30,473 nucleotides of DNA from Candidatus Aerophobetes bacterium Ae_b3b (GCA_005223085.1 NJBP01000024.1:1-30473), one strand, 5' to 3'; shown: positions 1,575-19,654, numbered from the stretch's first letter. Notes: a model not told the origin generated them from the sequence alone. A program made the numbers and translations.

Positions 1575-1607
1575 TTCTCATCTCCTCCTTCCCCAACGTA
1601 ATTTTTC

Positions 1608-2638: not shown

Positions 2639-2650
2639 TTGACACCATTA

Positions 2651-2697
2651 ATTTTGATATATAATTCTTATTTAATCTTCTATTGTTATATCAAAAT
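2651..2697. repeat. 11-bp perfect inverted repeat upstream of the transposase relic
   Basis: ATTTTGATATA at 2651-2661 is repeated inverted as TATATCAAAAT at 2687-2697, with 25 AT-rich bases between. It lies just upstream of the transposase start codon (2638). It could be an element-end structure, a transposase operator, or chance in AT-rich DNA. The matching opposite element end was not located. Confidence 0.5.
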
Positions 2698-2698
2698 A

Positions 2699-3009: not shown

Positions 3010-3894
3010 TTATATCAACGCTAGATCTCGAAGTTTAGCTTCTAGTTTCTTCTTTTCTTCTGGAGTGAGTTCCCTGAGAGGTTTTCTGGCATAGCCACCT
3101 TTTCTTCCCCGGAGCTCAAGGGCTGCTTTGTATGTAGCAATGTAAGGACCCTTCAATGCTGCCCTTATCTCTAACATTCTGTATTGAAGTTGAACTGCTT
3201 TTTCATAATCTCCCTCTTTAAAGGCCCGGTAAAGCTGAACAGGAATCTCGGGAAATACATTTCCAACCACCAGCACAGTTCCTTTCGCTCCCATAAGTAG
3301 TCCTGCCAAGACGAGATCATCGGTACCAATGATGAGGTTAAACTCATCTCCGACAACCTGTTTGAATTTACAGAAAGCTAAGAGTCTATCACTAGAGTCC
3401 TTCATCCCTACTATATTATCCAACTGAATGAGTCTGGACAGAAACTGAGGGGTTATCTCAAAACCGGTACGGGCAGGATTGTTGTAAATAAAGAAAGGAA
3501 GGTCGGTTGCTGAGGTTACATCTCGGTAATAGGAATAAATAGCCTCCTCATCATGTTTATAGTAGAAGGCAGGTACTGCTGCAATGGCATCTACGCCAGC
3601 TTCTGCTGCAATTTCTGCCTGTTGGATCACTTGGCGGGTGCTGGGGGAGCCTACCTGGGCAATTACAAACATATCATTTTCCCTTACCGCCTCCACCATT
3701 AAGCGATCAAATCTTTGATAATCATCGGGAGAAAGCATAGGACCTTCGCCATAGGTACCACTGGCGAAAATTCCGTCGACTCCCTTCTCAGCCAAAAACT
3801 TAATATGTCCTTTTAAGACTTCTCCATCAATTTCACCCTCTTTGGTAAAGGGGGTGAACGATGCCACAAGTACACCTTCTATTTTTTTTGCCAT
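3010..3894 (-). CDS. DapA-family lyase/aldolase, copy 1 (dihydrodipicolinate synthase/N-acetylneuraminate lyase superfamily)
   Basis: This is a TIM-barrel class I aldolase of 294 residues, the standard size. The carboxylate-binding loop reads GTYGEG (46-51) in place of the usual GTTGE. The catalytic tyrosine is in YNNPARTG (Tyr137) and the Schiff-base lysine in IVGMKDSS (Lys165), so it should be active. AGGAGGT precedes the ATG at a good distance. It lies 52 bases downstream of the LarA-like gene, and a second family member lies on that gene's other side. In a catabolic operon such enzymes usually cleave or dehydrate 2-keto-3-deoxy sugar acids rather than make lysine. True DapA cannot be excluded from motifs, but the altered GTYGE loop and the context argue against it. 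Confidence 0.9.
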   Translation of the reverse strand: MAKKIEGVLVASFTPFTKEGEIDGEVLKGHIKFLAEKGVDGIFASGTYGEGPMLSPDDYQRFDRLMVEAVRENDMFVIAQVGSPSTRQVIQQAEIAAEAGVDAIAAVPAFYYKHDEEAIYSYYRDVTSATDLPFFIYNNPARTGFEITPQFLSRLIQLDNIVGMKDSSDRLLAFCKFKQVVGDEFNLIIGTDDLVLAGLLMGAKGTVLVVGNVFPEIPVQLYRAFKEGDYEKAVQLQYRMLEIRAALKGPYIATYKAALELRGRKGGYARKPLRELTPEEKKKLEAKLRDLALI

Positions 3895-3946
3895 TGTTTA
3901 TCTACCTCCTAATGGTATTTTGGCAATTTTCCGATTCTCTCGACTC

Positions 3947-5263
3947 TCACATCTCATAATTTTTTTCTTGCCCTTTAACATACGGTAATGATATACCACC
4001 CAAGGACATAACGCCTACTTTCGCTTTTTCCCCACATTTCTTGAAAGCTCTTTTGAGAGCCTCCTGCATTGATCTTGTCCAATTAAGATGGAGTTGATCA
4101 GCTTTTTCAGCAGAGATTCCTTCAGTTACAATTATCATATCTGACTTCTGCTGTGCCTGTAGTATCTTATAAATGGCAGGGGAGTTAGCCATTTCATAGC
4201 TGTATTTTTCTGCTTTTATCTCTTCAAGATACTCTTCAGGGGTAGGCCAAGGTCTGCTTAGTGATTCCTCATATAATTTCTTGGTTAAAGATGGCCCGAG
4301 TTCTTCAGAACAATAGGCAGCTATGATTCTTACTCCCCCATTCTTAACTACCTCTGCGGTACTCATCATAGGGACATTACTCATGTCAAAATACCAATGT
4401 TTGGGATTGGCACTGGCAATTACAATATCTGCCCTCTCAGGAAATCCTACACCGAAGACTTTCAGGAAGAACTTTATTCCTTCTTTCTGGGCCTTAACGG
4501 GGTTTCCTGCCACTGCTTCCATTATCTCCAGTTTGGAATCAAGAATAACGTTGACAACCATATCTAGGCCAGCCATATTTGCTGCCTCAACCATATCCAT
4601 CCAGCAAGGGTTGTTATTGGTTCTTCCAAACCATGACTGAGGGGAACGAGCGAGTTCTCCATGATTATGAAAGATAGATTCTTTACCTGCTACTCCTGGT
4701 AATAGTATTTTTGGTCCACCACAGAAACCAGAATAAGCATGAGCCTCAAGACTACCGATACCAATCTTTATGTCTGAGTCGGCTACCGCACGGTTAATCC
4801 ATAAGGGGGTACCAAATTTAGTTTTCCCTATATACTTTAACTGATTCTTATCCTCAGCATTATGTTGGATAATTCTTATTTTCCCTTCGGATACTATTTG
4901 CTTACCCACTTTTTTTTGTATTTCTTCTTTCTCCATTGGTCTGTGAATACCGGCGGCAATAATTATGCAAATATCCTCAGCTTTAACTCCAGCTTTTTTT
5001 AATCGCTCCAACAGAATGGGAAGGATTCTATGTGCAGGGGTAGGCCGGGTATAATCATCACAGATTATGGCAACTTTCTTGCCGCAAGCGGCCTTTTTCT
5101 CTATCGGATCCATACCCATTGGTCTGTCCAGAATCTTGTTTATCCTATCTTCCAGATTTAGAGCTGTCGACACTTGTTTTGGCCATCCCACAAGAAGAAG
5201 GTTTTTATCCGGGATTTCAAATTGGATCTTTTCTTCCCCATAGGGAATCTCTATTTGTGCCAT
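3947..5263 (-). CDS. larA: LarA-family nickel-dependent 2-hydroxyacid racemase/epimerase (DUF2088)
   Basis: The 438-residue protein has the LarA two-domain layout. Conserved sites are visible: DDYTRPTP (69-76), GIHRPM with His107, LEAHAYSGF with His175, GGPK with Lys185, and FHNHG with His199/His201. In lactate racemase the equivalent residues bind the nickel-pincer cofactor; the lysine holds it covalently and the histidines bind nickel or act as acid/base. The AAGGAGGGATAG before the ATG is formed by the last codons and stop of the preceding gene (4-base gap), implying coupled translation. Known LarA homologues interconvert epimers of several 2-hydroxyacids, including sugar acids. Within this operon I infer a sugar-acid C2 epimerase. 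The cofactor genes larB, larC and larE are not in the window. Confidence 0.87.
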   Translation of the reverse strand: MAQIEIPYGEEKIQFEIPDKNLLLVGWPKQVSTALNLEDRINKILDRPMGMDPIEKKAACGKKVAIICDDYTRPTPAHRILPILLERLKKAGVKAEDICIIIAAGIHRPMEKEEIQKKVGKQIVSEGKIRIIQHNAEDKNQLKYIGKTKFGTPLWINRAVADSDIKIGIGSLEAHAYSGFCGGPKILLPGVAGKESIFHNHGELARSPQSWFGRTNNNPCWMDMVEAANMAGLDMVVNVILDSKLEIMEAVAGNPVKAQKEGIKFFLKVFGVGFPERADIVIASANPKHWYFDMSNVPMMSTAEVVKNGGVRIIAAYCSEELGPSLTKKLYEESLSRPWPTPEEYLEEIKAEKYSYEMANSPAIYKILQAQQKSDMIIVTEGISAEKADQLHLNWTRSMQEALKRAFKKCGEKAKVGVMSLGGISLPYVKGQEKNYEM

Positions 5264-5267
5264 GTTG

Positions 5268-6170
5268 CTATCCCTCCTTAGGCAACAGGCCCAATTCTTT
5301 CAAAACCTGAGCTATCTGTTTCTTTTGTCTAGAATCAATACTGGGTAAGGGAAGTCTTACCGACCCTCCGGCTAAACCCAACATTTTCAGAGCTTCTTTA
5401 CAAGGAGAAACATAACCTGGTTCGTATTCTAAGAATCTGTTGAGGTTTTGAAGTTTCGTATGAATCTTAAACGCATTTTCATAGGATTCCTCCTCAAAGG
5501 CCTGATACAATTCAACCATCTGTGAGGGAACTATACAGGCAGCGGTAGAGAAAATTCCCTTTGCTCCCACACATAGGCTAGGATAAAATTGACTGTCGAT
5601 CCCTGTTAGGATCGCGATTTTATTACCCGCCAGCCGGATTATCTCTACTAATTGGCCCAAATCTGGGTTACTCTGTTTTAGCCCTATGATACCTTTCACC
5701 TCTGCAAGACGTTGAATAACAAGAGGAGTTAGATCATTTCCCGTATAAAGAGGATTATTGTAAACTATCACTGGTATATTCACATTGGATACAACAGTTT
5801 TATAATGTTCGTATAAAGAATCATCAGGTAATCTAAAGTAGTAAGGCGGTGTAATGATTGCCGCCTGAGCTCCTGCTTCTTGAGCTTCTTGGGTAAGAAT
5901 TATGGTCTCCTTGGTACCACAGGCTGCAGTTCCTGCTATAACAGGAATCTTGCCTTGGATAGTTTCAGCTATTGTTTCTACTACCATACTCTTTTCTTCT
6001 TTTAACAGATGGCAGAACTCTCCGTTACCACCGGTGCACATTATTCCATGCACTCCTTTGCTAATTAGATATTCCGTTAACCCTTCTAGTCCTTTTAAAT
6101 CAACTTCACCTTCGGGGGTAAAAGGAGTAATTATAGCTGGAATTATCCCTCTTAGCTGTTCTCTTTCCAT
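5268..6170 (-). CDS. DapA-family lyase/aldolase, copy 2
   Basis: This 300-residue TIM-barrel class I aldolase has a substrate loop CTGGNGEFCHL, so GGNGE replaces GTTGE. Tyr137 lies in YNNPLYTG and the Schiff-base lysine is Lys165 in IIGLKQSN. It is clearly diverged from copy 1 and not a recent duplicate. It starts two bases after the stop of the RmlD-like gene, with AAAAGGGAA inside that gene's end as ribosome binding site, and ends four bases before the LarA-like gene. The tight packing indicates one transcript with coupled translation. Both copies keep the catalytic residues but differ in the substrate loop, so I infer different substrates or successive steps on a keto-deoxy sugar acid. Confidence 0.9.
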   Translation of the reverse strand: MEREQLRGIIPAIITPFTPEGEVDLKGLEGLTEYLISKGVHGIMCTGGNGEFCHLLKEEKSMVVETIAETIQGKIPVIAGTAACGTKETIILTQEAQEAGAQAAIITPPYYFRLPDDSLYEHYKTVVSNVNIPVIVYNNPLYTGNDLTPLVIQRLAEVKGIIGLKQSNPDLGQLVEIIRLAGNKIAILTGIDSQFYPSLCVGAKGIFSTAACIVPSQMVELYQAFEEESYENAFKIHTKLQNLNRFLEYEPGYVSPCKEALKMLGLAGGSVRLPLPSIDSRQKKQIAQVLKELGLLPKEG

Positions 6171-6172
6171 TT

Positions 6173-7159
6173 TTATTCCCTTTTTTCTCTACCTCTCAAC
6201 TGAGCTTTCATTATTTTTAATCCTTCTTCATATCCTGTCATTTTACGATCCAGAGTTTTCTCTATCTTACTTACATCTAAACTGGCATTTCTGGGGAGCT
6301 CATTAATTAACTGAGGTACAATGCTATGGTCAACCGCAAAAGATAAGAGAAGATCTTCCGGGGTCCCCAGCAAAACTAAATCTTCTTCCAAATCGAAAAC
6401 CCTGGCTATCTCTTTTACAAACTCATAACGGTTTGTGTTTTCTCTACCTGCTACATGGTATATTCCCTGTAAATTTCTGCTACACACCTCCAAAATCACT
6501 TCGGCTATATCACTGGCCAAGGTAGGAGACTGGGATATCTGCGTAGGTTGTTTTATCGCCTTACCCTTTCTGAGTAAACTAATAACTTTCACCGCCCAGC
6601 TATTTCTTTGAATACTTCTTTCCTCCCACAGTGACCACTGCTGAGGAATAGCAAAATTATGTCCGTATACATTGGCAACCCTGAGAATAACCCAGTCATC
6701 TGTATTATTTTGAGTAGCTATTTCCCCTTCCCGTTTGGTCTTGCCGTAACAATTTAGAGGAGATGGAAGATCATTCTCAGTGTATCTTTCGCTCAACTCT
6801 TTTTTTCCATCAAAGACCCAATCAGTAGAAATATAGATCATCTTAGCTCTCAAACTATGGCATACCTTTGCCACATTTTCTGTTCCTTTGACATTTACCT
6901 CATAGGCTAAATCAGGGCTTTTCTCACAACCTCCCAGACTCGCATAGGCGGCACTGTGTACTACAAAATCAGCTCGAAAATCCATAAGGCAATTTTTGCA
7001 AGCATTCTGGTCAGTAATGTCCAAGATTCCCGATGTACAATTTTCTATCCGAGGAGGAAAAGAAAACCCTAAGCCTAAGACGGACAATTTTTGTTTTGCC
7101 TTATAGGCTACATTGCTTCCCACCAGTCCACTGGCTCCAGTTATGGCTATTCTTTTCAT
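6173..7159 (-). CDS. NAD(P)-dependent sugar reductase/epimerase, RmlD-like extended SDR
   Basis: The N-terminus MKRIAITGASGLVGSN holds the GxxGxxG nucleotide loop. YISTDWVFDG and SPLNCYGKTKREGE (YxxxK catalytic pair) are typical of the dTDP-4-dehydrorhamnose reductase branch of extended SDRs. I start it at the ATG at 7157-7159 (328 residues), preceded by TAGGGAAAG. An upstream in-frame TTG at 7189 would add ten residues but lacks a good ribosome binding site and disturbs the usual close start-to-loop spacing. No nucleotide-sugar genes are adjacent, so a role on a free sugar or sugar lactone of this pathway is likelier than rhamnose synthesis. The exact reaction is unknown. Confidence 0.85.
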   Translation of the reverse strand: MKRIAITGASGLVGSNVAYKAKQKLSVLGLGFSFPPRIENCTSGILDITDQNACKNCLMDFRADFVVHSAAYASLGGCEKSPDLAYEVNVKGTENVAKVCHSLRAKMIYISTDWVFDGKKELSERYTENDLPSPLNCYGKTKREGEIATQNNTDDWVILRVANVYGHNFAIPQQWSLWEERSIQRNSWAVKVISLLRKGKAIKQPTQISQSPTLASDIAEVILEVCSRNLQGIYHVAGRENTNRYEFVKEIARVFDLEEDLVLLGTPEDLLLSFAVDHSIVPQLINELPRNASLDVSKIEKTLDRKMTGYEEGLKIMKAQLRGREKRE

Positions 7160-7185
7160 TTTTCTTTCCCTAAAGGCCTTTATTC

Positions 7186-7935
7186 TCAAGCTTTTGAGAG
7201 TTTAAGTAATCGAGCAGCATTTTCATAAAGTATTTTCTCTTTAGCTTGCTGAGATATTTGGGCATCTTTTACCTTAGCTAGTTCTGCTCCAAGGTTCAAA
7301 GCTGGACTATCTGAGCCAAACAGTATCTTATCCTCTCCACATCTCTCTACCGCAGTTTTAATAATTAACCACTCTGTAGTAGTACCTGTTGTATCCAGAT
7401 AAATATTTTCTGCCTTCTCTGCTATAACAATAGCTTCCAACCAGTCTTCAAATCCCATGTGAGCCATGATGATCTTGGCCTGAGGAAATCTCTGGGCCAG
7501 GGCAGCTATTCGTCTGGGGTTTGAATAATCATCATTCCAGGTGTGGAATAAAAGCGGAATATCGTAGTGTATCGCTTTTTCCATCACTGGATCAACTATG
7601 GTTGAATCTGCGTAGTACCCATTAAGGGTGGGATGGAGCTTCAACCCCTTCATCCCGTACTCCTTTATACACTTATCTATTTCCTGCTTAACCAGTGTTT
7701 GTTTGTATCGGGGGGAGATAACTCCAAACCCGATCAGGCGCTCAGGATACTTTTTTACCGCATCGAATATCTCCTTATTTCCCTTGATGGGATCATAAGA
7801 AAGCTGCCAGGAATTCACGCAGGATATATCTACACCAAACTGGTCCATCAGTTTAATGAGACCCTCAAGATCAGCATAATCCTCACTCCATCCTACCCAG
7901 GAAGTGCCTAAGTGCGCATGAATATCAATAATCAT
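7186..7935 (-). CDS. Amidohydrolase-2 family metal-dependent hydrolase
   Basis: This is a compact TIM-barrel hydrolase of 249 residues (PF04909 type). Metal ligands are visible: the HxH pair in MIIDIHAHLG (His6, His8), the barrel histidines in LLFHTW and IIMAHMGFEDW, and the aspartate in LFGSDSPALNLG. GLKLHPTLNG matches the conserved strand carrying KLHP. Its ATG overlaps the preceding SDR stop as ATGA, so translation is coupled. Family members act as lactonases, decarboxylases or hydratases. In a sugar dehydrogenase operon a lactonase following an oxidation step is a sensible guess, not shown by the sequence. Confidence 0.88.
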   Translation of the reverse strand: MIIDIHAHLGTSWVGWSEDYADLEGLIKLMDQFGVDISCVNSWQLSYDPIKGNKEIFDAVKKYPERLIGFGVISPRYKQTLVKQEIDKCIKEYGMKGLKLHPTLNGYYADSTIVDPVMEKAIHYDIPLLFHTWNDDYSNPRRIAALAQRFPQAKIIMAHMGFEDWLEAIVIAEKAENIYLDTTGTTTEWLIIKTAVERCGEDKILFGSDSPALNLGAELAKVKDAQISQQAKEKILYENAARLLKLSKA

Positions 7936-8723
7936 AATATTATCTCCTTTCCTGTAGTCCAGCCACCATCCACCAGGAGCAGCTCCCCGGTGATGAAATC
8001 CGAGGCAGCAGAGGCTAGATAAACCACTGCTCCGGCCACATCCATAGGGTCTCCAACTCTACCTATGGGGAGCTTGCTAACAATGTCCTGGTATTTTTTG
8101 GGATTCTCAAAAACGTGGCTCGCCATCTCGGTCTTAATGAAGGTCGGGCCAATTGCATTAACGTTGATGTTATACTTACCCCATTCCATAGCAAAGGTTT
8201 TAGTTAACGACCAGACCGCGGCTTTACTCGCATTGTAGGAAGCGTGGGCTGGCAATGGCATGATAGCATTCATAGAGGCAATATTAACAATCTTTCCCTT
8301 TTTTCGCGAAATCATCTGGGGCACTACCTTTTGAGTACAAAAGAAAAGAGCCTTTAAATTCACATCAAAAGTAGCATCCCAGGTTTTTTCACTGATCTCA
8401 AGAGCAGGCTCTCGGAAACATACCCCGGCATTGTTGACTAATATGTCAATCCGCCCAAACTTACCCATCACCTCATCAACCATACGATCAATTTGAGCAA
8501 GTTTGGTGATATCGGCCTCTACCGCTAACGCTCGGGAACCCAATTTCTCTATTTCCTCAATCACCTGGTCTGATTTCTCAATGTCTGCTACTACCACATC
8601 TGCTCCGGCATTTGCCAGAGCAAGCGCACAAACACGACCGATTCCCCGCTTTCCTCCAGTAACTAAAGCCACTTTCCCCTCTACCCGGAAGTCAGGAAAT
8701 TTTAATTCTTCCTTACTTTCCAT
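7932..8723 (-). CDS. SDR family oxidoreductase (classical)
   Basis: This classical short-chain dehydrogenase has 263 residues. It shows TGGKRGIG (22-29) for NAD(P) binding, NNAG (97-100), catalytic Ser150 in NIASMN, and Tyr163 and Lys167 in YNASK. Asp47 at the end of the second strand (VVVADIEK) favours NAD over NADP. The C-terminus FITGELLLVDGGWTTG is typical. The start has AAGGAGGTG at good spacing. It is followed by the amidohydrolase with an ATGA overlap and preceded by the FGGY kinase 36 bases away. It likely oxidises or reduces a polyol, ketose or sugar acid of the pathway. KduD- or gluconate-5-dehydrogenase-like activity is possible but unproved. Confidence 0.92.
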   Translation of the reverse strand: MESKEELKFPDFRVEGKVALVTGGKRGIGRVCALALANAGADVVVADIEKSDQVIEEIEKLGSRALAVEADITKLAQIDRMVDEVMGKFGRIDILVNNAGVCFREPALEISEKTWDATFDVNLKALFFCTQKVVPQMISRKKGKIVNIASMNAIMPLPAHASYNASKAAVWSLTKTFAMEWGKYNINVNAIGPTFIKTEMASHVFENPKKYQDIVSKLPIGRVGDPMDVAGAVVYLASAASDFITGELLLVDGGWTTGKEIIL

Positions 8724-8759
8724 TCTATTTGCACCTCCTTGTTCTTCACATTTTCCAGG

Positions 8760-10301
8760 TCAGGAAATAACCCGGTGAATCTCCTCAAATAACCTTTTGT
8801 TATTGCTATAGAGCGTTTTGTAAATGTTAAAGAGACCCTGATATAGGAGATGGTTATCTGGTATAGGTTCACGTTCTTCTACTATGGGTATAACTTTATC
8901 GCACATATCTTCCGCGGTGGGATAAATCTGTACTCCTACCCCACCAAGTATGGCTGCTCCCAGGCAAGTAGCCTCACTAACAGCTAAAAGTCTAACCTTC
9001 TTACCCGTTATATCTGCTACTATCTGACGCCAAAATGCACTCTTGGCTGCGCCTCCGGCAATTATGATGCTAGACACTTGGATACCGATTTCCTCTTCTG
9101 CATCTATGCGGTGTTTTATACTATAGCCTATTCCTTCCATGATAGATCTTATAAAATCAGATTTTTGGTGTCTGAGAGTAAGGCCAAAAAAGCAACCTCT
9201 GGCCAGAGGGTCAAACACAGGACTTCTTTCTCCCAAAAGATAGGGAAGGAATATTAAACCTTCGCACCCGGGCTTTGATTTTTGAGCCTCCAGGTTCATT
9301 AAGTCGTAAGGATCAATATCTAGGGTGTGAGCACTTTCTTTTTCCAAAGGGCAGAACTCGTCTCGAAACCATCTCAATGAGATACCTGAGGTATTGGCAC
9401 CGGCAATGGTAACATATTTTCCAGGAACAGCATGGGGATAGTAACCGATTCTCTTTTCAGGATCCAGAATAGGCTTATTTACACAGGTTATGACATCTGA
9501 GGAAGTTCCAATGTTTACGCAGGTATAACCAGCTCTGACTACTCCAGTTCCCACCGCGGAAACAGTAGTATCTCCTGCTCCAACAACAACGGGAGTACCC
9601 TCCGTTAAGCCAACTTGCAAGGCTACCTGGCCCAAGAGACCCCCTGCGATGGAAGTGGATAAAGTCAAGGGAGGCAGTTTATCGGCAGACAAACCTGCAA
9701 TTTTCAATAACTGCGGTGACCATTCTAATTTTTGTACATCTAAAAGCTGAGTAGCAGAAGCACTGGCATAGTCGGTAAAGATCTCACCGGTAAATCTAAA
9801 AACGATGAAGTCTTTGGGTTGGAGGATTTTATACGTTTGTCTAAAGACCTGGGGTAAGTTCTCCCTTACCCACATAATCTTAGATAGGGAGTAGATGGGG
9901 TCTATTCTAAGACCAGTTTTACTATATAGTTCATCTTCACCAATAGTTTCCCGGAGTAACTTACACTGAGGGAAGGTTCTGCGATCCATCCATAGTAGAC
10001 TTTTGCAAAGAGGGTTTCCTTCTCTATCCAAAAACACTGGAGAAGGTTGATGACCGGTAACTGAGATAACCGCTATCTTTTGGGGATCAACTTTGGCTTT
10101 GTCTACAACTTTCTTTAAATTTGATAAAGTCGCCTTCCACCACTGGTTAGGATCCTGTTCCGCCCAGCCGGGATATGGTGTTTCCACTGGATATTCCATG
10201 TAAGAACTGCTCAGCGGTTGTCCTCTCAAGTCAAATAGAATACTTCGGGATCCCGTGGTACCTATGTCTATTCCTATGAGAAAATGAGTATCTTTACTCA
10301 T
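8760..10301 (-). CDS. FGGY-family carbohydrate kinase, xylulokinase-like
   Basis: The protein has 513 residues, full length for the family, with two actin-like ATPase halves. The N-terminal phosphate loop is GIDIGTTGSRS (10-20). GHQPSPVFLD and WMDRRT form the sugar-binding region, GAGDTTVSAVGTGVV and PYLLGERSPVFDP the signature region, and IIIAGGAAKSAFWRQIVADI the C-terminal adenosine motif. The architecture is closest to xylulokinase, but kinases for other ketoses and sugar acids share it. Only a weak AAAAGAAG precedes the ATG. It follows the 2-hydroxyacid dehydrogenase by 34 bases. Presumably it phosphorylates the free intermediate before aldol cleavage or entry into central metabolism. Confidence 0.9.
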   Translation of the reverse strand: MSKDTHFLIGIDIGTTGSRSILFDLRGQPLSSSYMEYPVETPYPGWAEQDPNQWWKATLSNLKKVVDKAKVDPQKIAVISVTGHQPSPVFLDREGNPLCKSLLWMDRRTFPQCKLLRETIGEDELYSKTGLRIDPIYSLSKIMWVRENLPQVFRQTYKILQPKDFIVFRFTGEIFTDYASASATQLLDVQKLEWSPQLLKIAGLSADKLPPLTLSTSIAGGLLGQVALQVGLTEGTPVVVGAGDTTVSAVGTGVVRAGYTCVNIGTSSDVITCVNKPILDPEKRIGYYPHAVPGKYVTIAGANTSGISLRWFRDEFCPLEKESAHTLDIDPYDLMNLEAQKSKPGCEGLIFLPYLLGERSPVFDPLARGCFFGLTLRHQKSDFIRSIMEGIGYSIKHRIDAEEEIGIQVSSIIIAGGAAKSAFWRQIVADITGKKVRLLAVSEATCLGAAILGGVGVQIYPTAEDMCDKVIPIVEEREPIPDNHLLYQGLFNIYKTLYSNNKRLFEEIHRVIS

Positions 10302-10335
10302 ATGTAAGTTCTTCTTTTCATTTTACAAAAAGACC

Positions 10336-11322
10336 TTAGTTACCTTTTGCCTGAATTTCTTCCCAGTTTACCGAGAATTGGGGACTATCTCCTTTAGCTA
10401 CTCTTATGATTTCCTCTGCTACTATCATGCCAGTTCTCATACTAGCCTCAACGGTATACCCACCGATATGAGGAGTAGCCAGAACATTGGGTAGAGTGAA
10501 AAGAGGGAAGTTTTTTTCAGGAGGCTCTTTTGAATATGTATCTATAGCTGCTCCGGCCAGCAGTCCTTTTTCCAAAGCACGGTAAAGATCATCTTCGTTG
10601 ACTATGCTTCCTCTGGCGGTGTTTATGAGATAAGCTGTCCTCTTCATTTTTTGGAGCTGGTTATAGCCGATAAGATTCTCAGTTGAAGGAATTAAGGGAA
10701 CGTGCACCGTAACAAAATCCGATAGCTGAACTAGTGTCTGTAGATCGACAAACTTAACTGACCATTTTCTTTCAAAATGTTCACTGCGCACAACATCGTA
10801 GTATAAAACCTCCATACCAAACCCTCGGGCTCTTTTTGCTACCTTTTTTCCAATACTTCCTAACCCAACAATCCCTAATACCTTCTCATAAATTTCAATT
10901 CCTGTATATTTAGGCCCTTCCCATAGACCCTTTCCTAGTGAAATGCTGGCTGGTACAAGGCCTCTGGCAATTCCTAAAATAAGGGCAAAAGTATAATCAG
11001 CAACCGTTTCCTCATTAGCTCCTAGAGCCCTCGTTACAACAATTCTCCTTTTAGTGGCCTCTGGGATATTTATTTTATCTAATCCTATTCCATGTTTCGC
11101 TATAATCCTCAATTTGTTTGCCTTACGCAAGGTCTGTAGTCCTATCTCATCTTCCCCTGCAATAATTGCAAAGTAATCTCCTATTATTCGAGCTAACTCA
11201 TCATCAGAAAAGGGACCACGGTCGTATACCAGCTCACACTTGTTTCTCTTGAGCAAATTTTCAGGTTCATTACTAATCTTCCCGAAGGAAAATGAACTGA
11301 CTAACACTTTGAATTTATCCAT
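10336..11322 (-). CDS. D-isomer-specific 2-hydroxyacid dehydrogenase, phosphoglycerate dehydrogenase-like
   Basis: The 328-residue NAD-dependent enzyme has the flavodoxin-like catalytic and Rossmann domains. Visible are AKHGIGLDKINI, the nucleotide loop VGLGSIGKK, the catalytic arginine in NTARGSIVNEDDL, the glutamate in YSKEPPEK and the histidine in TPHIGGYT. It lacks the ACT domain of long SerA. The chosen ATG (11320-11322) has AAAAGGAGAAGGTG immediately upstream and lies 13 bases after the cyclase stop. A TTG at 11355 would add an unlikely lysine-rich leader. In this operon it may act on a 2-hydroxy/2-keto sugar acid, which would fit with the LarA-like epimerase. Confidence 0.9.
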   Translation of the reverse strand: MDKFKVLVSSFSFGKISNEPENLLKRNKCELVYDRGPFSDDELARIIGDYFAIIAGEDEIGLQTLRKANKLRIIAKHGIGLDKINIPEATKRRIVVTRALGANEETVADYTFALILGIARGLVPASISLGKGLWEGPKYTGIEIYEKVLGIVGLGSIGKKVAKRARGFGMEVLYYDVVRSEHFERKWSVKFVDLQTLVQLSDFVTVHVPLIPSTENLIGYNQLQKMKRTAYLINTARGSIVNEDDLYRALEKGLLAGAAIDTYSKEPPEKNFPLFTLPNVLATPHIGGYTVEASMRTGMIVAEEIIRVAKGDSPQFSVNWEEIQAKGN

Positions 11323-11335
11323 CACCTTCTCCTTT

Positions 11336-12043
11336 TTACTCTGTTTCGAGAGCAATGAGTCTAATAGGAGAAGAGCTCCCGTGTATACCCTTGATATTAA
11401 GAGGGGAAGCTATTATTAATAGTTTCTTCCCTACTACCTTATCAACTTCACCCCCTACATTTTCTATGATGAGAATATTATTAGGTAGGAAATTCTTTCC
11501 ATGGTTAGGTGGATGAAAGGGAGGCTGAGCAAAAAATTTATGATCATCCACATCACAGGCATCAATCCCTACCAATTTTACCTTCTTGTCAGCCAACCAA
11601 CTGCCTGCCTCATCACCTATGGCGGTAGAATAAGCATAGTAGTCTTTGGGGTGAGTGTCAAATAGATGGTGCCATCCGGTGTTAATAATGATCATATCAT
11701 CTGACTGAAGGGTTTTTTTCGTTTTTTCTACTGCCATCTCCAGATCTCTTTGGGAGATACACAGATTTTTTCCACAAGAAGGACCATACTTATCGGAAAG
11801 ATCGACAACTAGACCCTCCCCTACAAAGCGGTCCAAAGATAAATCTTCCAGTTTTTTCCCATCCCTCACAAAGTGCCAGGGGGAGTCCAGATGAGTAGCA
11901 AAATGAAGGGTAATGGTGACCTTGGAACTTCTACAGCCTTGAACTTCAAAAGTTTCATAACTTTCAAATTCAGGTGAGCCAAAAGGATGAAACGTTTTCT
12001 TAGATATTCCATGGGTCAAATCATAGATATTTTTTATTTTCAT
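11336..12043 (-). CDS. Cyclase-family metal hydrolase (kynurenine formamidase-like, PF04199)
   Basis: This 235-residue protein begins with YDLTHGISKKTFHPFG and carries the family metal site HFATHLDSPWHF (His47, His51, Asp53, His57), followed by VVDLS and later VGIDACDVD. The length matches bacterial kynurenine formamidase/isatin hydrolase relatives. AAGGGAGAAG precedes the ATG. No tryptophan catabolic genes lie nearby, so hydrolysis of an amide, lactone or similar ring in the sugar pathway is more likely. The reaction is inferred from the family only. The 80 bases before it, up to the isomerase-like gene, contain nothing I recognise. Confidence 0.88.
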   Translation of the reverse strand: MKIKNIYDLTHGISKKTFHPFGSPEFESYETFEVQGCRSSKVTITLHFATHLDSPWHFVRDGKKLEDLSLDRFVGEGLVVDLSDKYGPSCGKNLCISQRDLEMAVEKTKKTLQSDDMIIINTGWHHLFDTHPKDYYAYSTAIGDEAGSWLADKKVKLVGIDACDVDDHKFFAQPPFHPPNHGKNFLPNNILIIENVGGEVDKVVGKKLLIIASPLNIKGIHGSSSPIRLIALETE

Positions 12044-12123: not shown

Positions 12124-12903
12124 TCACAGGTATTTTTTGAGTAAAGCCACACTTTTCTCTACCCCTTCTCTCTCATCTCCCTCTCCTTCAAATTCCAGAC
12201 AAACATACCTATTAAAGTGAGCCTGCCTTAGCATTTCCCTTACCTTACTATAATCAATGGTGATTTCCTCTCCCTGGGAGTCAAATTGATAAGTTTTTGC
12301 ATGCACATGTACAGCATAGGGAAGAAGAGATTGGAAGGAGTGATAGCGAATATCCTCACGGATATTACCAATATCAGGACAAATCTTGAGGTAAGGAGAA
12401 TCGAACTCTTCTACTAATCTCAGCACCACTTTGGGATCGGTGTCTCGGGGACAGTTTTCTACGGCCAAGCAAATGTTTCTTTGTTCTGCCTCTCTTAAAC
12501 ACTTCTCCAAACAGGATTTCACAAAGGGATAGAGGGCTTCTTCATCTTTGTTGAGGGCTATTAAGTCTCCTGGAAGTATCCTCAGAATTTTGGAACCCAT
12601 TTCTTCTATACTATCCATCCATGGGAACACTCGAGCAACATCCTTCTCTCTAACGTTAGGATCTAAACTGGTAAAGTCATGATTATTTACGGCGATAGTT
12701 ACCACAGTTAAGCCTAAATCCTGAGCCTTTTCTCTTAAATTCCTTATCGTTCCCCCTTTTTCTAAATGCATCTCTAAATGTTCATCCCAAAATTCTACTC
12801 CCTCTATACCTAACGTTTGGCATATTTGCAGATACTCCTCCAAACCCCTCTGTCCAGAAGAAATACTCCTGTTAAAACTAAAGCTGGTACAGCAGATTTT
12901 CAT
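12124..12903 (-). CDS. Sugar phosphate isomerase/epimerase-like TIM barrel (AP endonuclease 2/xylose isomerase-like)
   Basis: This 259-residue protein of the PF01261 superfamily shows the metal and acid/base positions as GVEFWDE (strand 2), CLAVENCP (glutamate), KICPDIGNI (aspartate), VHVHAKT (histidines) and YVCLEFEGEGD (C-terminal glutamate). These resemble the IolE/hydroxypyruvate isomerase/tagatose-3-epimerase group. AAAGGATAG lies upstream of the ATG. It sits directly after the ABC permeases, a common place for the first intracellular isomerisation or epimerisation step. The substrate is unknown. Confidence 0.87.
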   Translation of the reverse strand: MKICCTSFSFNRSISSGQRGLEEYLQICQTLGIEGVEFWDEHLEMHLEKGGTIRNLREKAQDLGLTVVTIAVNNHDFTSLDPNVREKDVARVFPWMDSIEEMGSKILRILPGDLIALNKDEEALYPFVKSCLEKCLREAEQRNICLAVENCPRDTDPKVVLRLVEEFDSPYLKICPDIGNIREDIRYHSFQSLLPYAVHVHAKTYQFDSQGEEITIDYSKVREMLRQAHFNRYVCLEFEGEGDEREGVEKSVALLKKYL

Positions 12904-12943: not shown

Positions 12944-13777
12944 CTAGCCTTTAACCGCTCCCAAGGTCATTCCCCTTACTACGTGCTTATGCAAGACGGT
13001 AACCATTAAAAAAAGTGGTACCAGGCAAACCATAGCAGCCGCAGACATTCCTCCCCAATCAAACCTGAATTGTTGCTTAAAGCCAGCGAAAGCCACAGTA
13101 ACAGGAACAACTCTGGATCGGGTCAGAACCAAGGGAATGAAAAACTCATTCCACGAGAAAATGAAAGCAAATATGGCGGTAACGGCTATTGACGGAGCAG
13201 CTATCGGCAGCAATATTTTCCACAATACCATAAGATTTCCACATCCGTCTACTCTGGCGGCGTCGTCCAACTCCCGCGGAATATCGTTCAGAAATCCATA
13301 TAAAAGCCAGATGCTAAAGGGTAATGTAGGAATTAAATTGGCCAAAATTACAACTATGTAGGTATCTACGAGTCTAAATTTTTGAAACATAAGAAATAAC
13401 GGCAGTACTACAGCTACTGCCGGCAGGAAGCGATTGCTCAAAAACCATATAGGAATAAATGTCTTCCCTCTAAAGTTGTACCTGGATAGAGCAAAAGCAG
13501 TAACAATTCCTAGTCCCACACTTATGAAGGTAGTACCTGAAGAAATAATCAAGCTATTTAAAACTCTTCCGTAAAATTTCCATTCAGTTTGCAGCCTGAT
13601 AAAATGCTCGAGAATAGGCTGAAACCTAAATACTGGTGGGCTTGACATTATGAGCTCAGTAGGTTTAACTGCGGTGAGGCCCACCCAAGCCAAAGGAAAA
13701 AGATACACTGCAAAAAAGAAAACGTAACTGAGTACCAAGACTATTCTAATTACCCTATTTTTCCATTCCTTATGCAT
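12944..13777 (-). CDS. Carbohydrate ABC transporter permease, MalG-like
   Basis: This 277-residue inner-membrane permease of the CUT1 type has six predicted hydrophobic segments. The EAA loop that docks the ATPase is visible in IPRELDDAARVDGCGNLM. The start at 13775-13777 is preferred because GAAGGAGGCCAGAAAATG gives a strong ribosome binding site and an eight-base overlap (ATGCATAA) with the MalF-like gene. A further upstream start would create a 50-base overlap and a non-family leader. It pairs with the MalF-like permease and the binding protein. No ATP-binding subunit is encoded in the window, so a shared MsmK/UgpC-type ATPase must be elsewhere. Confidence 0.92.
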   Translation of the reverse strand: MHKEWKNRVIRIVLVLSYVFFFAVYLFPLAWVGLTAVKPTELIMSSPPVFRFQPILEHFIRLQTEWKFYGRVLNSLIISSGTTFISVGLGIVTAFALSRYNFRGKTFIPIWFLSNRFLPAVAVVLPLFLMFQKFRLVDTYIVVILANLIPTLPFSIWLLYGFLNDIPRELDDAARVDGCGNLMVLWKILLPIAAPSIAVTAIFAFIFSWNEFFIPLVLTRSRVVPVTVAFAGFKQQFRFDWGGMSAAAMVCLVPLFLMVTVLHKHVVRGMTLGAVKG

Positions 13778-14669
13778 TTTCTGGCCTCCTTCGCAGAACA
13801 TTAATAAACAATATAACAAAAACGTTAATTAAAGCCAGCATGAGATAAGCATAAGCTGCAGCATGCCCTATCTCGAAATATCTGAATCCCAGCATATAGG
13901 CATTAAAAGGTAAAACACTGGTGCTGACAGCAGGACCTCCATATGTGATTACATAAGGAAGATCCATCACTCTAATGAGATCTATTCCCCGAATCAAAAT
14001 GATTACTAGGAACGCGTGTTTAGTCCAAGGTAACATTATGTACCGAAATCTTTGCCACGCTCCAGCACCGTCAATATTTGCTGCCTCCCACTGATCTTGG
14101 GGAATAGATAGAATAGCAGCTAGTAATACCAGAAAAGAAAAAGGGATCCACTCCCATACATCTGCCATGATAAGAGATATCATTGCCCAAGTCGGCCTAG
14201 CCAGCCATTCTGGAGCAGGAAGTCCTACTGTTCTTAGCAGGAAGTTAAGGAGACCGAAGGAATACTGGTACATGTACCTCCATATGTTTCCCACCACTAC
14301 CGGAGCAAGCAGCATGGGCATCATCATCAAAATTCGTAAGCTGCGTAATCCTCTACGGTGTTCTCCAGAAAAGAGCATAGCAGCTAGTAATCCGATCCCA
14401 ACTTCCCCTGCAAGACATCCTCCCAGGTAAATGAGTGTAAGCCAAAGGGATTTGGGAAAAGAGATTCCCAGGGGATGACCGCTGGTAAGAGTATTTAAAA
14501 AATTTTCCCCTCCGACGTAGTTAATACCTCGGCTTGGATCAAGGAGACTATAACTGTGCAGACTTAACCAGGCTGAGTAAATTAGAGGAAAAACACCAAG
14601 CACTAATAAAACAGCTATTGCAGGGACTAACATTAACCAGGGTAATTTCTTGCTCCTTTCACCAGACAT
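13770..14669 (-). CDS. Carbohydrate ABC transporter permease, MalF-like
   Basis: The 299-residue CUT1 permease has an N-terminal membrane anchor (PWLMLVPAIAVLLVLGVFPL) and about six hydrophobic segments. Its EAA motif is IPQDQWEAANIDGAGAWQRF, followed by the short helix YIMLPW. AAAGAGGAAAGC precedes the ATG. The intrinsic terminator at 14694-14734 lies between this gene and the binding protein gene upstream, so the permeases are probably expressed by read-through at a lower level. It forms a heterodimer with the MalG-like permease. Confidence 0.92.
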   Translation of the reverse strand: MSGERSKKLPWLMLVPAIAVLLVLGVFPLIYSAWLSLHSYSLLDPSRGINYVGGENFLNTLTSGHPLGISFPKSLWLTLIYLGGCLAGEVGIGLLAAMLFSGEHRRGLRSLRILMMMPMLLAPVVVGNIWRYMYQYSFGLLNFLLRTVGLPAPEWLARPTWAMISLIMADVWEWIPFSFLVLLAAILSIPQDQWEAANIDGAGAWQRFRYIMLPWTKHAFLVIILIRGIDLIRVMDLPYVITYGGPAVSTSVLPFNAYMLGFRYFEIGHAAAYAYLMLALINVFVILFINVLRRRPENA

Positions 14670-14693: not shown

Positions 14694-14734
14694 CTAAAAA
14701 AAATGTCGCAGCAAAGATTTTTTGCTGCGACATT
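14694..14734 (-). terminator. Intrinsic terminator between binding protein and permease genes
   Basis: AATGTCGCAGCAAA (14702-14715) and TTTGCTGCGACATT (14721-14734) form a perfect 14-bp stem with a 5-base loop. Read on the minus strand, eight T residues follow at once (A run 14696-14703, partly in the stem base). It lies 19 bases after the binding protein stop. Partial termination here would give more binding protein than permease, a known arrangement in sugar ABC operons. Confidence 0.93.
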
Positions 14735-14752: not shown

Positions 14753-16036
14753 TTACTTTTGACTCTGCTCTATCCGTCCCTGCATAACCTTGTAGACTTC
14801 CGTGTTGGCATCGCGTACCGCTTCTGCTGGTGTTTTCTCTCCTAACATCATTTTATTTAATTCCACGCCTACTATATTCTCCACCAAACTGAATTCTGCA
14901 ATGACTGGTCTCGGAATAGCATACTCTAAGGATTTAGCGAGTACCGAGAAGTATCGAGATTTAGCCACATTAACAGGATCAGTTAGAGCAGATATTCTGG
15001 CTGGCTGTCCGGTATGAGCTACCAGTAGTTGTTGATTTTCCCTACCTGTATAGAATTTAATGAAATCCCAGGCCTGATCTTTGTAATAAGACTTAGTGTT
15101 TATACCCAGTCCGTAACCACCCATAGGTAGAACTCGTTTACCCCTAAAACTAGGAGGAAGAGCTACTCCTATCTTATTTGCCAGTTTAGCTGCCTCCGGG
15201 TTAGTAAGTACGTTACCTGCCCATTGATTGGGAGCCATTCCTACAACTCCAGCCGTTCCCATGGCCTCGTACAAGTCAGCCTCAGCCCATCCTATGGCAT
15301 CAGGAGGGCAGAATTTGGTCAGTTTCAGAAGTAACTCGGCTGCCTCTACACCTGCTGGAGTATCGATCGCCGGCACGTAATTTTCGTCCCAGAAGTATCC
15401 CCCCGCACTCATGAACGGAGCGTACCAGACATCTGCCGCCCAGAAACGCTTCAAATTTGCCCCCGCAGCATAAAAAGACGGGGGATTATGGATCTTTGGA
15501 GCTACAGCAAATACCTCTTCCCAGCTTGTTGGAACCTTCACCCCAGCATCATCTAAGACATCCTGTCTGTAATAAAACACCTGACTATTTCCATCATGCG
15601 GAATAGCCCACCACTGGTCTTTGTACTTGTACATCCCCAGAACTACATCATAGATATCGCTCTGTATGTCTTGCCAGAACTCCGAATCCTGCAGCAGATA
15701 TGCATCAAGAGGTAACAGGTAACCGGCATCAGCGTATCCCCCGATATATTTATAGTCTATCCAGATGATATCATAGGCTCCTCCTCCACCGGCAACGTCT
15801 AAGGCTATTTTTGTTGCCCATTCCTCCCAGGGATAGGACTCTATAACAACATCCACATCAGGGTTGAGCTTCATGTACGCATCAGCCACTCCTTTAACTG
15901 CAAATCCGTATCTGGGACCCGTCTGACCAATGAAGGTTAATGTGGTTTTTCCCTGTACCGCAATCGGACAGACGAAACTGGTCAGCAAACCTACCATTGT
16001 TCCCACTAATAACCAACTCAACATTTTTTTTGACAT
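14753..16036 (-). CDS. Extracellular solute-binding protein of a sugar ABC transporter (family 1)
   Basis: The 427-residue protein starts with MSKK and a hydrophobic core (MLSWLLVGTMVGLLTSF) ending near AVQG-K, a type I signal peptide. No clear lipobox is present. The mature part begins TLTFIGQTGPRYGF and contains VDVVIESYPWEEWATKIALD and YDIIWIDY, as in CUT1 binding proteins. WDFIKFYTGRENQQLLV is the conserved C-terminal region. AAGGAGG precedes the ATG inside a small hairpin loop. It is the first gene after the operator-bearing promoter at 16258-16285 and is followed by a strong terminator. It should capture the sugar substrate outside the membrane. Confidence 0.93.
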   Translation of the reverse strand: MSKKMLSWLLVGTMVGLLTSFVCPIAVQGKTTLTFIGQTGPRYGFAVKGVADAYMKLNPDVDVVIESYPWEEWATKIALDVAGGGGAYDIIWIDYKYIGGYADAGYLLPLDAYLLQDSEFWQDIQSDIYDVVLGMYKYKDQWWAIPHDGNSQVFYYRQDVLDDAGVKVPTSWEEVFAVAPKIHNPPSFYAAGANLKRFWAADVWYAPFMSAGGYFWDENYVPAIDTPAGVEAAELLLKLTKFCPPDAIGWAEADLYEAMGTAGVVGMAPNQWAGNVLTNPEAAKLANKIGVALPPSFRGKRVLPMGGYGLGINTKSYYKDQAWDFIKFYTGRENQQLLVAHTGQPARISALTDPVNVAKSRYFSVLAKSLEYAIPRPVIAEFSLVENIVGVELNKMMLGEKTPAEAVRDANTEVYKVMQGRIEQSQK

Positions 16037-16234: not shown

Positions 16235-16254
16235 TAATGTCTGTTGACTTACCT
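16235..16254. promoter_or_regulatory. Candidate GntR operator 1 (transport operon)
   Basis: TAATGTCTGTTGACTTACCT occurs here and, identical in all 20 bases, at 19635-19654 before the GntR gene. In both places it begins three to four bases downstream of -10, overlapping the expected transcription start. The core GTC-TGTT-GAC is a dyad. A repressor bound here would block initiation. The family of the binding protein is inferred from position. Confidence 0.8.
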
Positions 16255-16347: not shown

Positions 16348-17469
16348 TTAGCTTTTTGGCCAAGGATTAATTACTGCCTTTATGGCATTATCTGGTCTAC
16401 TATTGATGAAATGGAAAGCTTGATTAATTCTTTCTAGGGAAAATTCATGAGTAACAAGTTTAGACAATGGAAATTGAGAAGATTGTATGATTTTTACCGC
16501 ACCTTCATACCCTTGAGCACTTAAAATACATCCCGAAACGCTCACTTCTCTAAACACCAAATCAGTATCCGGGATCAATGTTAATGCTTTTCTACCATTT
16601 ATGCCAACAAATACACATCTCCCACCCCTCTTTACCATTTTTATGGCTAATACTTGAGCCTCGGGAGAACCACTTGCCTCTATACTCATATCAGCTCCAA
16701 AATCACCGACTACTTCCCTAACTTTATCAATGGGATTTTTAATCTGAGATGAATTTATAGTATAATCTGCCCCCAGCTCTTGTCCTACAACTAATCTATT
16801 TTCATCTTTTTCTCCGGCTCCTATCAAAATTATAGGATAGGCTCCCGCATTCTTAGCTGCAACTACCGCACATAACCCGATAGTCCCCGGGCCCAGAATT
16901 ACACAGGACTCACCTGCCCCCAATTTGGCTACATTAACTGCGTGTAAAGCTGTAGCCAAAGGCTCGGTTAATACCCCTGTTTTCCATTCCATTTTTTTCT
17001 CATATTTATGGACAAACGCCTCTGGAGGTACATATAAGTACTGAGCGAACCCACCCCACAAAGGAGTAGGAAGTCTAGAAGCTGGGATGTTACATCCATA
17101 CTGTCGGCCATATCCACCGGTGAATGACGCATCATCCTTCTGGCAAATATTGTATCTTCCCTGTTTGCACCACCGGCATTGATGGCAGGGAATTAGTATC
17201 TCAACCGTTATTTGATCGTCTATGTTAATCCTTCTTTGTTGAATAGCTTTGGTACCTACCTCTGTCACTTCTCCAATGAATTCGTGCCCCATAATGTATG
17301 GTGTTGATATTCCCTGGACTCCGTTCCAAAAATGAATATCTGATCCACAAATCCCACAGAGTCTAATCTTCATTAAAATATCATAAGGCCCCAAGGACGG
17401 TTTTTCAAATTCTTGGATAATAAACTTTCCTGGTTTTACAAACAAAGCCGCTTTTACTTTTTCATTCAT
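16348..17469 (-). CDS. Zinc-dependent alcohol/polyol dehydrogenase (threonine/sorbitol dehydrogenase-like MDR)
   Basis: This medium-chain dehydrogenase has 373 residues from the ATG at 17469. The catalytic zinc site is CGICGSD (Cys41) with GHE (His62, Glu63). The structural zinc loop is CHQCRWCKQGRYNIC, all four cysteines present. The NAD loop is ILGPGTIGLCAVVAAK. A GTG at 17484 could add five residues; neither start has a strong ribosome binding site. It lies 57 bases after the Gfo/Idh/MocA gene and before the transport-operon promoter. It probably oxidises a secondary alcohol of a sugar or sugar acid. Substrate unknown. Confidence 0.9.
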   Translation of the reverse strand: MNEKVKAALFVKPGKFIIQEFEKPSLGPYDILMKIRLCGICGSDIHFWNGVQGISTPYIMGHEFIGEVTEVGTKAIQQRRINIDDQITVEILIPCHQCRWCKQGRYNICQKDDASFTGGYGRQYGCNIPASRLPTPLWGGFAQYLYVPPEAFVHKYEKKMEWKTGVLTEPLATALHAVNVAKLGAGESCVILGPGTIGLCAVVAAKNAGAYPIILIGAGEKDENRLVVGQELGADYTINSSQIKNPIDKVREVVGDFGADMSIEASGSPEAQVLAIKMVKRGGRCVFVGINGRKALTLIPDTDLVFREVSVSGCILSAQGYEGAVKIIQSSQFPLSKLVTHEFSLERINQAFHFINSRPDNAIKAVINPWPKS

Positions 17470-17526
17470 TTTTTGGAACTTCACAAGGAGGTTCTTCAGA
17501 AGCTTAAGATGGAGATACAGAGTGAA

Positions 17527-18684
17527 TCATCTATTTATCATAACTTTTTCCCATTTTCCTTGTTTTGCACTATTTACAATGGCTTCAACAATTGACTGAA
17601 TATTGTGTCCAACTCTGAACGTTGGAAAATCAGGCTCAATTTTATCTAAATGCTTTTTCTCCAGGATATACTCATATATTCTGCTAAAATGTTTTTTAAA
17701 AGTGTCAGAATATCCTTCTATTTGCCCCGGTGCAGCTCCAATGGACCCTCTTACCTTTGGTTTAAACAAAGCTGGGTCTCTTAAAAGGATCTGATTGGGT
17801 TTATCACGAAATCCCACCCACAGCTTGTCTGCCTGAGACAAATCCCAGGCTATCGATCCCTTTAGACCACTAACCTCAAGAAAAAAATCCCACCTTTTCC
17901 CTGCACTGACCTCGGACAAAGTAAGCACTCCTTTAGCTCCATTGTTGAACCTCATGAGAATACTAGCGTACTCTTCTAATGGAGTACTCTTTTTTTCGTA
18001 CCCAGTTTTGACTGGTGAATAAGCCTTATCTTCTCGCTGTCTCAATCGTATCGGGAAAACATTGGTAAAATCAGCACACACTGAATCTATGGTGAGGCCT
18101 GAAGTAAATTGTACTAAGTCGAGCCAATGGCACCCGGTCGTTGCCACTACGCAGCTACTACCCCCTTTTTGTGGATCCATTCTCCAGTTGTAATCTGTTT
18201 GGTGAAGAAATGCATCCTCCAAGGACCAACCACGTATGATACAAATATCTCCCAGTTCATTTTCCTGGACCATTGCTTTTGTTTGTTGTATGGCCGGAAA
18301 AAAACGAATGTTGAAATTAACTGCGGTGACCATACGTTTTCTTTCGGCAATTCTCGCCAATTCTGATGTCTCTTCTGTATTCAATCCCAAAGGTTTTTCG
18401 CAGATTACATGTTTATCAGCTTCGAGGGCAGCTTTTGCTTGGGGAAAATGAGCGTGGTTGGGGCTAGCAATGTGGACAACTTCTATTTTTGGATCCGAGA
18501 TTAGCTCTTGGTAGTTCCCGTATGCCTTGGGTATATTATGTTTTCTTGCGTAAGAGAGTGCCAGGTCTTCGTTAAGATCAGCAAGAGCTGTTATTTCCAC
18601 AAATTCTATTCTCCTTAAGGCATCTATGTGAGTGAATCCTATGCCTCCACCTCCTATTATACCTACCTTTATTCTTCTGAGCAT
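17527..18684 (-). CDS. Gfo/Idh/MocA family NAD(P)-dependent oxidoreductase
   Basis: The 385-residue protein begins with the dinucleotide loop VGIIGGGGIGFTHIDALRRI. It has the family signature VICEKPLGLNTEE (EKP, with the catalytic lysine) and a long C-terminal domain with GGSSCVVATTGCHWLDLVQF, carrying the usual GxxxDxGxHxxD-type region in altered form. It is first after the regulator, from which 194 non-coding bases separate it. That gap has no convincing promoter. It likely oxidises a pyranoside or inositol-like ring carbon, the usual activity of the family. Confidence 0.9.
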   Translation of the reverse strand: MLRRIKVGIIGGGGIGFTHIDALRRIEFVEITALADLNEDLALSYARKHNIPKAYGNYQELISDPKIEVVHIASPNHAHFPQAKAALEADKHVICEKPLGLNTEETSELARIAERKRMVTAVNFNIRFFPAIQQTKAMVQENELGDICIIRGWSLEDAFLHQTDYNWRMDPQKGGSSCVVATTGCHWLDLVQFTSGLTIDSVCADFTNVFPIRLRQREDKAYSPVKTGYEKKSTPLEEYASILMRFNNGAKGVLTLSEVSAGKRWDFFLEVSGLKGSIAWDLSQADKLWVGFRDKPNQILLRDPALFKPKVRGSIGAAPGQIEGYSDTFKKHFSRIYEYILEKKHLDKIEPDFPTFRVGHNIQSIVEAIVNSAKQGKWEKVMINR

Positions 18685-18878: not shown

Positions 18879-19625
18879 CTACTGTCTGCGTTTACGAAGG
18901 ATAGTAAACTCAAGAATATTGGGAGCCCAATATTCTCGCCCATATATAATAGGTTTATCTTCAGAGTTATAATCAACCTCCTCCACCAATAATAGAGGTG
19001 AGAGGTCCACAATTTTCAATTTATCTAAAATATAAGGTCCGGGTAGAATAGGGATTATCCTACCTAGGCTATATTCTATCTTCTGATTGTACTTTTCCTC
19101 CAGAAATTTAGATAAAGATCCATTAAGCTCTTTTAAAACCTCGATTCTTCCCACAATGTTCTCTGAAAAGACATCCAAAGTATAGACAGCCGGTTTTTCA
19201 TTCGCCGTTCTTACTCTCTCCAATATTATCACGGGAGAGCCTACTTCAATATTCAACTTATTGGAAATTGTTTTATCTGCTTTAGTGCGTTCTAATTTAA
19301 ACCAAGCTGTACCAGCTTTTAAACCTTTGGATTCTATAACCTCTGTTGCACTAGTGTTCACCTCCAATGGATTTCGAATAATCAGATCCGAACTTCGTAC
19401 AAAAGTGCCTCGTCCTTGGCGTCTAATAATAATTCCATCTTCTTCTAATAAACGCAGTGCCTCCCTTAGAGTTACCCGGCTGACTCCTAGCATCTGAGCC
19501 AATTTTGTCTCGTTAGGTAGTCTATCTCCAGGTGCCAGGATACTCCTTTGAATTAACTCTTCTATTTTATCTCTAGCTATAAGGGGAAGCGGTTGGGTTA
19601 ACTTTTCGATTTTAAATTGTTCCAT
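18879..19625 (-). CDS. GntR-family transcriptional regulator with UTRA domain (HutC subfamily)
   Basis: The 248-residue regulator has an N-terminal winged helix (about 12-80): LAPGDRLPNETKLAQMLGVS, then RVTLREALRLLEEDGII and RRQGRGTFV. The C-terminal UTRA ligand domain (about 95-240) ends VEEVDYNSEDKPIIYGREYW. It lies upstream of the catabolic genes on the same strand. Its own promoter carries the same 20-base block as the transport-operon promoter, which suggests autorepression and repression of the operon, relieved by a pathway metabolite. The transcript leader should be only about 27 bases and shows no clear Shine-Dalgarno, so translation may be weak. Confidence 0.93.
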   Translation of the reverse strand: MEQFKIEKLTQPLPLIARDKIEELIQRSILAPGDRLPNETKLAQMLGVSRVTLREALRLLEEDGIIIRRQGRGTFVRSSDLIIRNPLEVNTSATEVIESKGLKAGTAWFKLERTKADKTISNKLNIEVGSPVIILERVRTANEKPAVYTLDVFSENIVGRIEVLKELNGSLSKFLEEKYNQKIEYSLGRIIPILPGPYILDKLKIVDLSPLLLVEEVDYNSEDKPIIYGREYWAPNILEFTILRKRRQ

Positions 19626-19634: not shown

Positions 19635-19654
19635 TAATGTCTGTTGACTTACCT
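19635..19654. promoter_or_regulatory. Candidate GntR operator 2 (autoregulatory)
   Basis: This is the second, identical copy of TAATGTCTGTTGACTTACCT, lying between the gntR -10 box and its start codon. The spacing to -10 is the same as at operator 1 to within a base. Conservation over non-coding DNA 3.4 kb apart points to a functional binding site. Confidence 0.8.

Follow-up and report, generated by a model that had tools for sequence, protein, structure and literature searches.

A LarA homologue that keeps the residues of the nickel-pincer nucleotide (NPN) cofactor site and has lost the usual substrate contacts of its C-terminal domain is encoded between two DapA-family lyases, at the end of a sugar operon of Candidatus Aerophobetes bacterium Ae_b3b. 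In the window, by which we mean the whole stretch of 30,473 nucleotides analysed here (GCA_005223085.1 NJBP01000024.1:1-30473), we read from the sequence the layout of the operon, an operator-like motif common to two promoters, the importer genes and the three enzyme families, and elsewhere in the genome the cofactor genes; from these we infer how LarA is loaded and which reaction it may catalyse. With about even confidence, we propose that this GntR-controlled operon imports and degrades one carbohydrate or sugar acid, in which LarA would invert a carbinol centre in an acid-like C5-C6 intermediate and the lyases would act on 2-keto intermediates.

Results

The three genes are complete open reading frames on the minus strand: DapA/NAL-family lyase 2 (DapA2; 3010..3894; PF00701, 223.5 bits), the LarA homologue (3947..5263; Pfam Lar_N, 214.7 bits, and LarA_C, 35.6 bits) and DapA/NAL-family lyase 1 (DapA1; 5268..6170; PF00701, 245.5 bits). 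The gap between DapA2 and LarA is 52 bases and that between LarA and DapA1 is 4 bases, and a purine-rich stretch resembling a ribosome-binding site lies ahead of each gene. Both the reading frames and the Pfam families agree with the initial annotation, which had described three intact genes separated by these gaps. When the 4 LarA homologues and 5 DapA-family genes of the genome were placed at random within it, the fraction of trials in which a single LarA had two DapA genes within 1.3 kb was 4e-5.

The trio forms the 3' end of a closely spaced run of 13 minus-strand genes, extending from 16036 down to 3010. The run starts with an ABC sugar solute-binding protein (14753..16036; PF01547, 153.9 bits), and between this gene and the first permease lies a hairpin of 14 pairs followed by a T run (14702..14734, minus strand), a possible attenuator of the kind that is frequent at this place in importer operons. 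Two ABC sugar permeases follow, of UgpA/MalF type (13770..14669) and of MalG type (12944..13777, its start placed at an ATG by inspection), and then a xylose-isomerase-like TIM barrel of the sugar epimerase/isomerase kind (12124..12903; PF01261, 105.5 bits), a Cyclase-family hydrolase (11336..12043; PF04199), the 2-hydroxyacid dehydrogenase already recognised in the initial annotation, which is of the D-type (10336..11322; PF02826/PF00389), and an FGGY carbohydrate kinase (8760..10301) that scores 415 bits against TIGR01312, above the xylulokinase cut-off of 380. Between the kinase and the trio lie a short-chain dehydrogenase that resembles KduD/gluconate 5-dehydrogenase by its profile matches (7932..8723), an Amidohydrolase-2 family protein (7186..7935; PF04909, 129.4 bits), whose role could possibly be that of a lactonase, and an RmlD-like NAD(P) sugar dehydrogenase/epimerase (6173..7159; PF04321, 195.9 bits). 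Upstream of the operon, on the same strand, are a zinc-type medium-chain polyol dehydrogenase (16348..17484), a Gfo/Idh/MocA sugar dehydrogenase (17527..18684) and a GntR/UTRA regulator (18879..19625; PF00392 and PF07702).

At the other end, fragments resembling one broken DDE-type transposase (1735-2638, with a Pfam match on 1735-2106 only) separate DapA2 from the gene of a class III aminotransferase (291-1574); the aminotransferase gene may formerly have followed DapA2 in the operon.

Two strong promoter-like sites were recognised, each before a first gene: one ahead of gntR (19686-19659), matching the consensus at 12 of 12 positions, and one ahead of the binding-protein gene (16285-16258), matching at 11 of 12. 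They are the two best sites of the minus strand, in a region whose total of promoter-like sites is not above chance. Directly past the -10 element of both lies the identical 19-mer GGTAAGTCAACAGACATTA, copy 1 at 19635..19653 and copy 2 at 16235..16253, both on the minus strand. The 2.04-Mb genome holds exactly these two copies and no others at up to 3 mismatches, and the reversed control gave none. The simplest reading is that the 19-mer is likely the operator of the neighbouring GntR protein, and as it is common to the promoters of gntR and of the operon, the LarA/DapA trio would be part of one substrate-specific regulon.

The initial annotation had pointed to the lysine and histidines that the cofactor needs, and in the alignment Asp72, Arg75, His108, His174, Lys184 and His200 (LarA numbering) are indeed all kept by the LarA homologue. 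The equivalents of Tyr294, Gln295 and Lys298 are Asp, Met and Val, in the segment ANPKHWYFDMSNVPMM. As neither a lysine nor an arginine is found between the lysine of the NPKH motif and that of VVKN, the loss of Lys298 is independent of alignment details. A frameshift or assembly error as the source of the missing motif was rejected, since both alternative frames contain numerous stop codons. The LarA_C profile match begins only past the 294-298 segment, and its low score compares with 79-166 bits in two homologues of lactate- or broad-racemase type. Nearly all other aligned homologues keep Gln295 and Lys298, the exceptions including a paralogue on contig C40, in which Tyr-Gln is kept without the lysine. 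The loop after His174 is Ala-Tyr, putting an alanine at pocket position 175. Around positions 358 and 359 the alignment is poor and was set manually; it gives Pro and Ala, residues less bulky than those of lactate racemase. An AlphaFold model built from 4 sequences was unusable (mean pLDDT of 45). In the LarA_Ip enzyme, Arg73, Gln295, Lys298 and two histidines hold the carboxylate of the substrate, and His107 and Tyr294 contact its 2-hydroxyl (PMC11851776). Given the loss of Tyr294, Gln295 and Lys298, the homologue described here probably acts on a substrate not yet known.

The LarA homologue reached no NCBIfam cut-off for a functional LarA family, those of the hexonate epimerases included. 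Its best match is the LarAH6 malate racemase (NF052593; 335.4 bits, cut-off 500); LarAH5 gives 305 bits (cut-off 462), lactate racemase LarA (NF033504) 304.5 bits (cut-off 460), with Ala-Tyr where that family has a Phe-Phe loop, LarAH10 267 bits (cut-off 540), and the hexonate/gluconate 2-epimerase GntE (NF052594) 21 bits (cut-off 500), with Ala-Tyr as against a Glu-Val/Ser loop. In a maximum-likelihood tree whose references were LarA_Tsac, LarA_Ip and Mar2 only, the sequences of GntE, HGR and LarAH5/10 being left out, the homologue falls among uncharacterised LarAs at 99/97 support, eight from its own phylum and a ninth from a different one; it sits on a long branch of 1.29 changes per column and apart from all three references. 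The initial annotation had counted branching with plain lactate racemases, together with a gene order that does not recur, as a point against its reading; in the tree the homologue is separate from the lactate and malate racemases.

As for the lyases, Tyr107, Tyr133 and Lys161 are kept in both, which places them in the DHDPS/NAL superfamily, and the loops GTYGE (DapA2) and GGNGE (DapA1) are as first described. Against TIGR00674 (cut-off 206) DapA1 scores 238 bits and DapA2 186.7 bits. DapA1 has Gly-Asn at Thr44-Thr45 and a tyrosine in place of Arg138; in DapA2 Arg138 is present and position 45 is Tyr. A role in lysine biosynthesis was rejected, as these residues do not fit and as a separate dapA of 349.6 bits lies beside lysA/dapF on contig C25, so that DapA1 and DapA2 are not needed for lysine; the earlier view that both have diverged from plain DapA is thereby upheld. 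The DapA family also includes keto-deoxy sugar-acid aldolases, for example YagE of E. coli. DapA and YagE of E. coli are 26-34% identical to the two lyases (29-31% for YagE alone), whose loops fit neither, that of YagE being GSGGE.

All three cofactor genes, whose absence from the genome the initial annotation had counted as a point against its reading, are present on contig C36 and score above the curated cut-offs (larB 304, larC 225 and larE 334 bits). They form a larC-larB-larE cluster, and the same contig also carries a TRAP-like transporter and, behind a KdsB-like gene, another member of the DapA family.

Among the other LarA loci of the genome, the one on contig C25 comprises LarA, a polyol dehydrogenase, an epimerase and an FGGY kinase, that on C33 has no metabolic context, and the C40 paralogue lies in an operon (1564-10849) under an IclR-like regulator, in which a DapA and an ABC sugar importer precede this LarA and a DegT aminotransferase, a Gfo/Idh protein and an SDR follow it. 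A further "LarA" match, on contig C62, was discarded because on inspection it is a DUF362/ferredoxin-like protein. Among the nearest LarAs in the phylum, several again lie close to FGGY kinases, polyol dehydrogenases, 2-hydroxyacid dehydrogenases or sugar importers. In a genome of the same order (G014, contig C141, 7907-11797) a NanA-like lyase adjoins a Trp294-type LarA and a sulfatase, and in one of the same family (G002, contig C46) a LarA is found with polyol dehydrogenases, TIM barrels, a KduI-like protein, an ABC importer, an FGGY kinase and a 2-hydroxyacid dehydrogenase.

The DapA-LarA-DapA order was not found elsewhere in more than 600 genomes, plasmids, viral contigs and one GTDB scan, which relies on exact peptide seeds that distant orthologues could escape, nor did the same searches yield a LarA orthologue with more than 36% identity across the greater part of the sequence (38% over part). 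The genomes comprised 61 and then 386 relatives, 17 genomes of the phylum, 84 and 82 of two other phyla and 3 of a third; the matches of the GTDB scan were lactate-racemase-type proteins of Bathyarchaeota at 33-34% identity. The recurrence of the neighbourhood, by which the initial annotation was to be judged, is accordingly partial: the exact trio is unique to this genome as searched, which counts against the initial reading, whereas DapA and LarA occur together in two other operons, that of C40 and that of G014. In the open-licence papers searched we found none on NPN enzymes paired with DapA-type lyases, and the terms "nickel-pincer" and "dihydrodipicolinate synthase" co-occur there only in a Haloferax annotation review (PMC8305020).

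Discussion

We propose that LarA would be loaded with the nickel-pincer nucleotide from LarB, LarE and LarC, and would invert the configuration of a pathway intermediate at one carbinol centre: a hydride would move onto the cofactor and back, His108 and His174 serving as acid and base. As Tyr294, Gln295 and Lys298 are gone and positions 175, 358 and 359 appear small (Ala, Pro and Ala), the intermediate is probably a larger molecule than lactate or malate, bound in a non-standard manner, Arg75 and the histidines being the remaining contacts to its carboxylate. Judged from the sequence, the substrate class is most likely a C5 or C6 aldonic or keto-aldonic acid. The flanking Schiff-base lyases may then cleave or dehydrate 2-keto intermediates, as two substrates or in two steps, to yield pyruvate and an aldehyde. 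Against this explanation stand the lack, in the searches described above, of an orthologue that would show the unusual LarA residues to be conserved, and the lack of an aldonate dehydratase among the genes of the regulon. In addition, conclusions drawn from gene neighbourhood have proved misleading for LarA homologues in the past (PMC7583248).

The route put forward in the initial annotation is this explanation in its most specific form: LarA would be an aldonic acid C2 epimerase, and its product, after dehydration to a 2-keto-3-deoxy acid, would be split by one of the DapA-type lyases or by both. Its catabolic setting is supported, and the sugar-acid context and the presence of YagE and other keto-deoxy sugar-acid aldolases in the DapA family are in its favour. 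So are the gluconate and mannonate C2 epimerases known in the LarA superfamily (PMC7583248). An assignment as a hexonate epimerase is not supported, as the GntE model scores far below its cut-off and the C-domain residues Gln295 and Lys298 are lost; moreover, the route needs the very dehydratase that the regulon lacks, and neither lyase carries the YagE loop. We consider this route unlikely.

To our knowledge, the nickel-pincer enzymes characterised in the literature all act on 2-hydroxyacids, and here Arg75 and both catalytic histidines, which are also carboxylate contacts, are kept. Both points speak against LarA using its NPN on a substrate other than a 2-hydroxyacid, be it a sugar, a keto-sugar or a polyol, or in hydride chemistry that does not invert a stereocentre, and we hold this to be unlikely. 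Yet the C-domain residues that contact the carboxylate and the 2-hydroxyl in LarA_Ip are replaced, the C40 paralogue is also without Lys298, and for homologues without His174 or Lys298, whose substrates are unknown, a 2020 survey suggested other hydride chemistry (PMC7583248). It is conceivable, if doubtful, that a nickel-pincer enzyme without the clamp isomerises a non-2-hydroxyacid sugar or keto-sugar by a hydride shuttle, as a dedicated step in an inducible carbohydrate pathway to which two DapA-type lyases belong; if this were true, the paralogue on C40 would provide a second example.

A 2-hydroxyacid dehydrogenase is found not only in this operon but also adjacent to LarA in two further genomes of this order (loci L046 and L061), as would be expected if LarA served the end product. 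In that case the lyases would release a C3 unit, converted to lactate or glycerate, which LarA would racemise so that the D-2-hydroxyacid dehydrogenase could oxidise it. We regard this as distinctly unlikely, since LarA lies outside the lactate racemase branch, reaches 304 of the 460 bits and is without Phe175 and the carboxylate-binding Lys298. That LarA is decaying or cofactor-free and has no catalytic role, in keeping with its long branch and with the Y294A change in LarA_Ip, which gave a protein without tethered cofactor (PMC11851776), is very improbable in view of the intact frame, the full set of N-domain residues, the good ribosome-binding-like site and the tight position in the operon.

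Returning to the preferred reading, that of an inducible operon for one carbohydrate or sugar acid, a LarA that retains its cofactor site, is without the usual clamp and is tied by an operator-like motif to a sugar operon with two lyases is a concrete candidate for extending nickel-pincer chemistry into carbohydrate catabolism, and its partner enzymes in the operon make a small, testable list.

With the LarA superfamily (Lar_N/LarA_C) the homologue shares the domains, the NPN-binding and acid/base residues and the larB/C/E genes, and it differs in having no Tyr294, Gln295 or Lys298, of which Tyr/Trp294, Gln295 and Lys298 are usual but not universal features of the superfamily. From LarAH6/Mar2 it is set apart by a separate branch of the tree and by Ala-Tyr after His174, where LarAH6/Mar2 have Tyr-Lys. 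The sugar-acid gene context and the small pocket residues are like those of GntE and the LarAH18 hexonate group, to which, however, there is no meaningful profile match. An altered active site in a carbohydrate gene context is also found in the single-histidine LarA subfamily of Blautia and Streptococcus (PMC12611868); unlike that subfamily, which lost His174, the LarA homologue described here keeps both histidines and has lost the substrate contacts of the C-domain.
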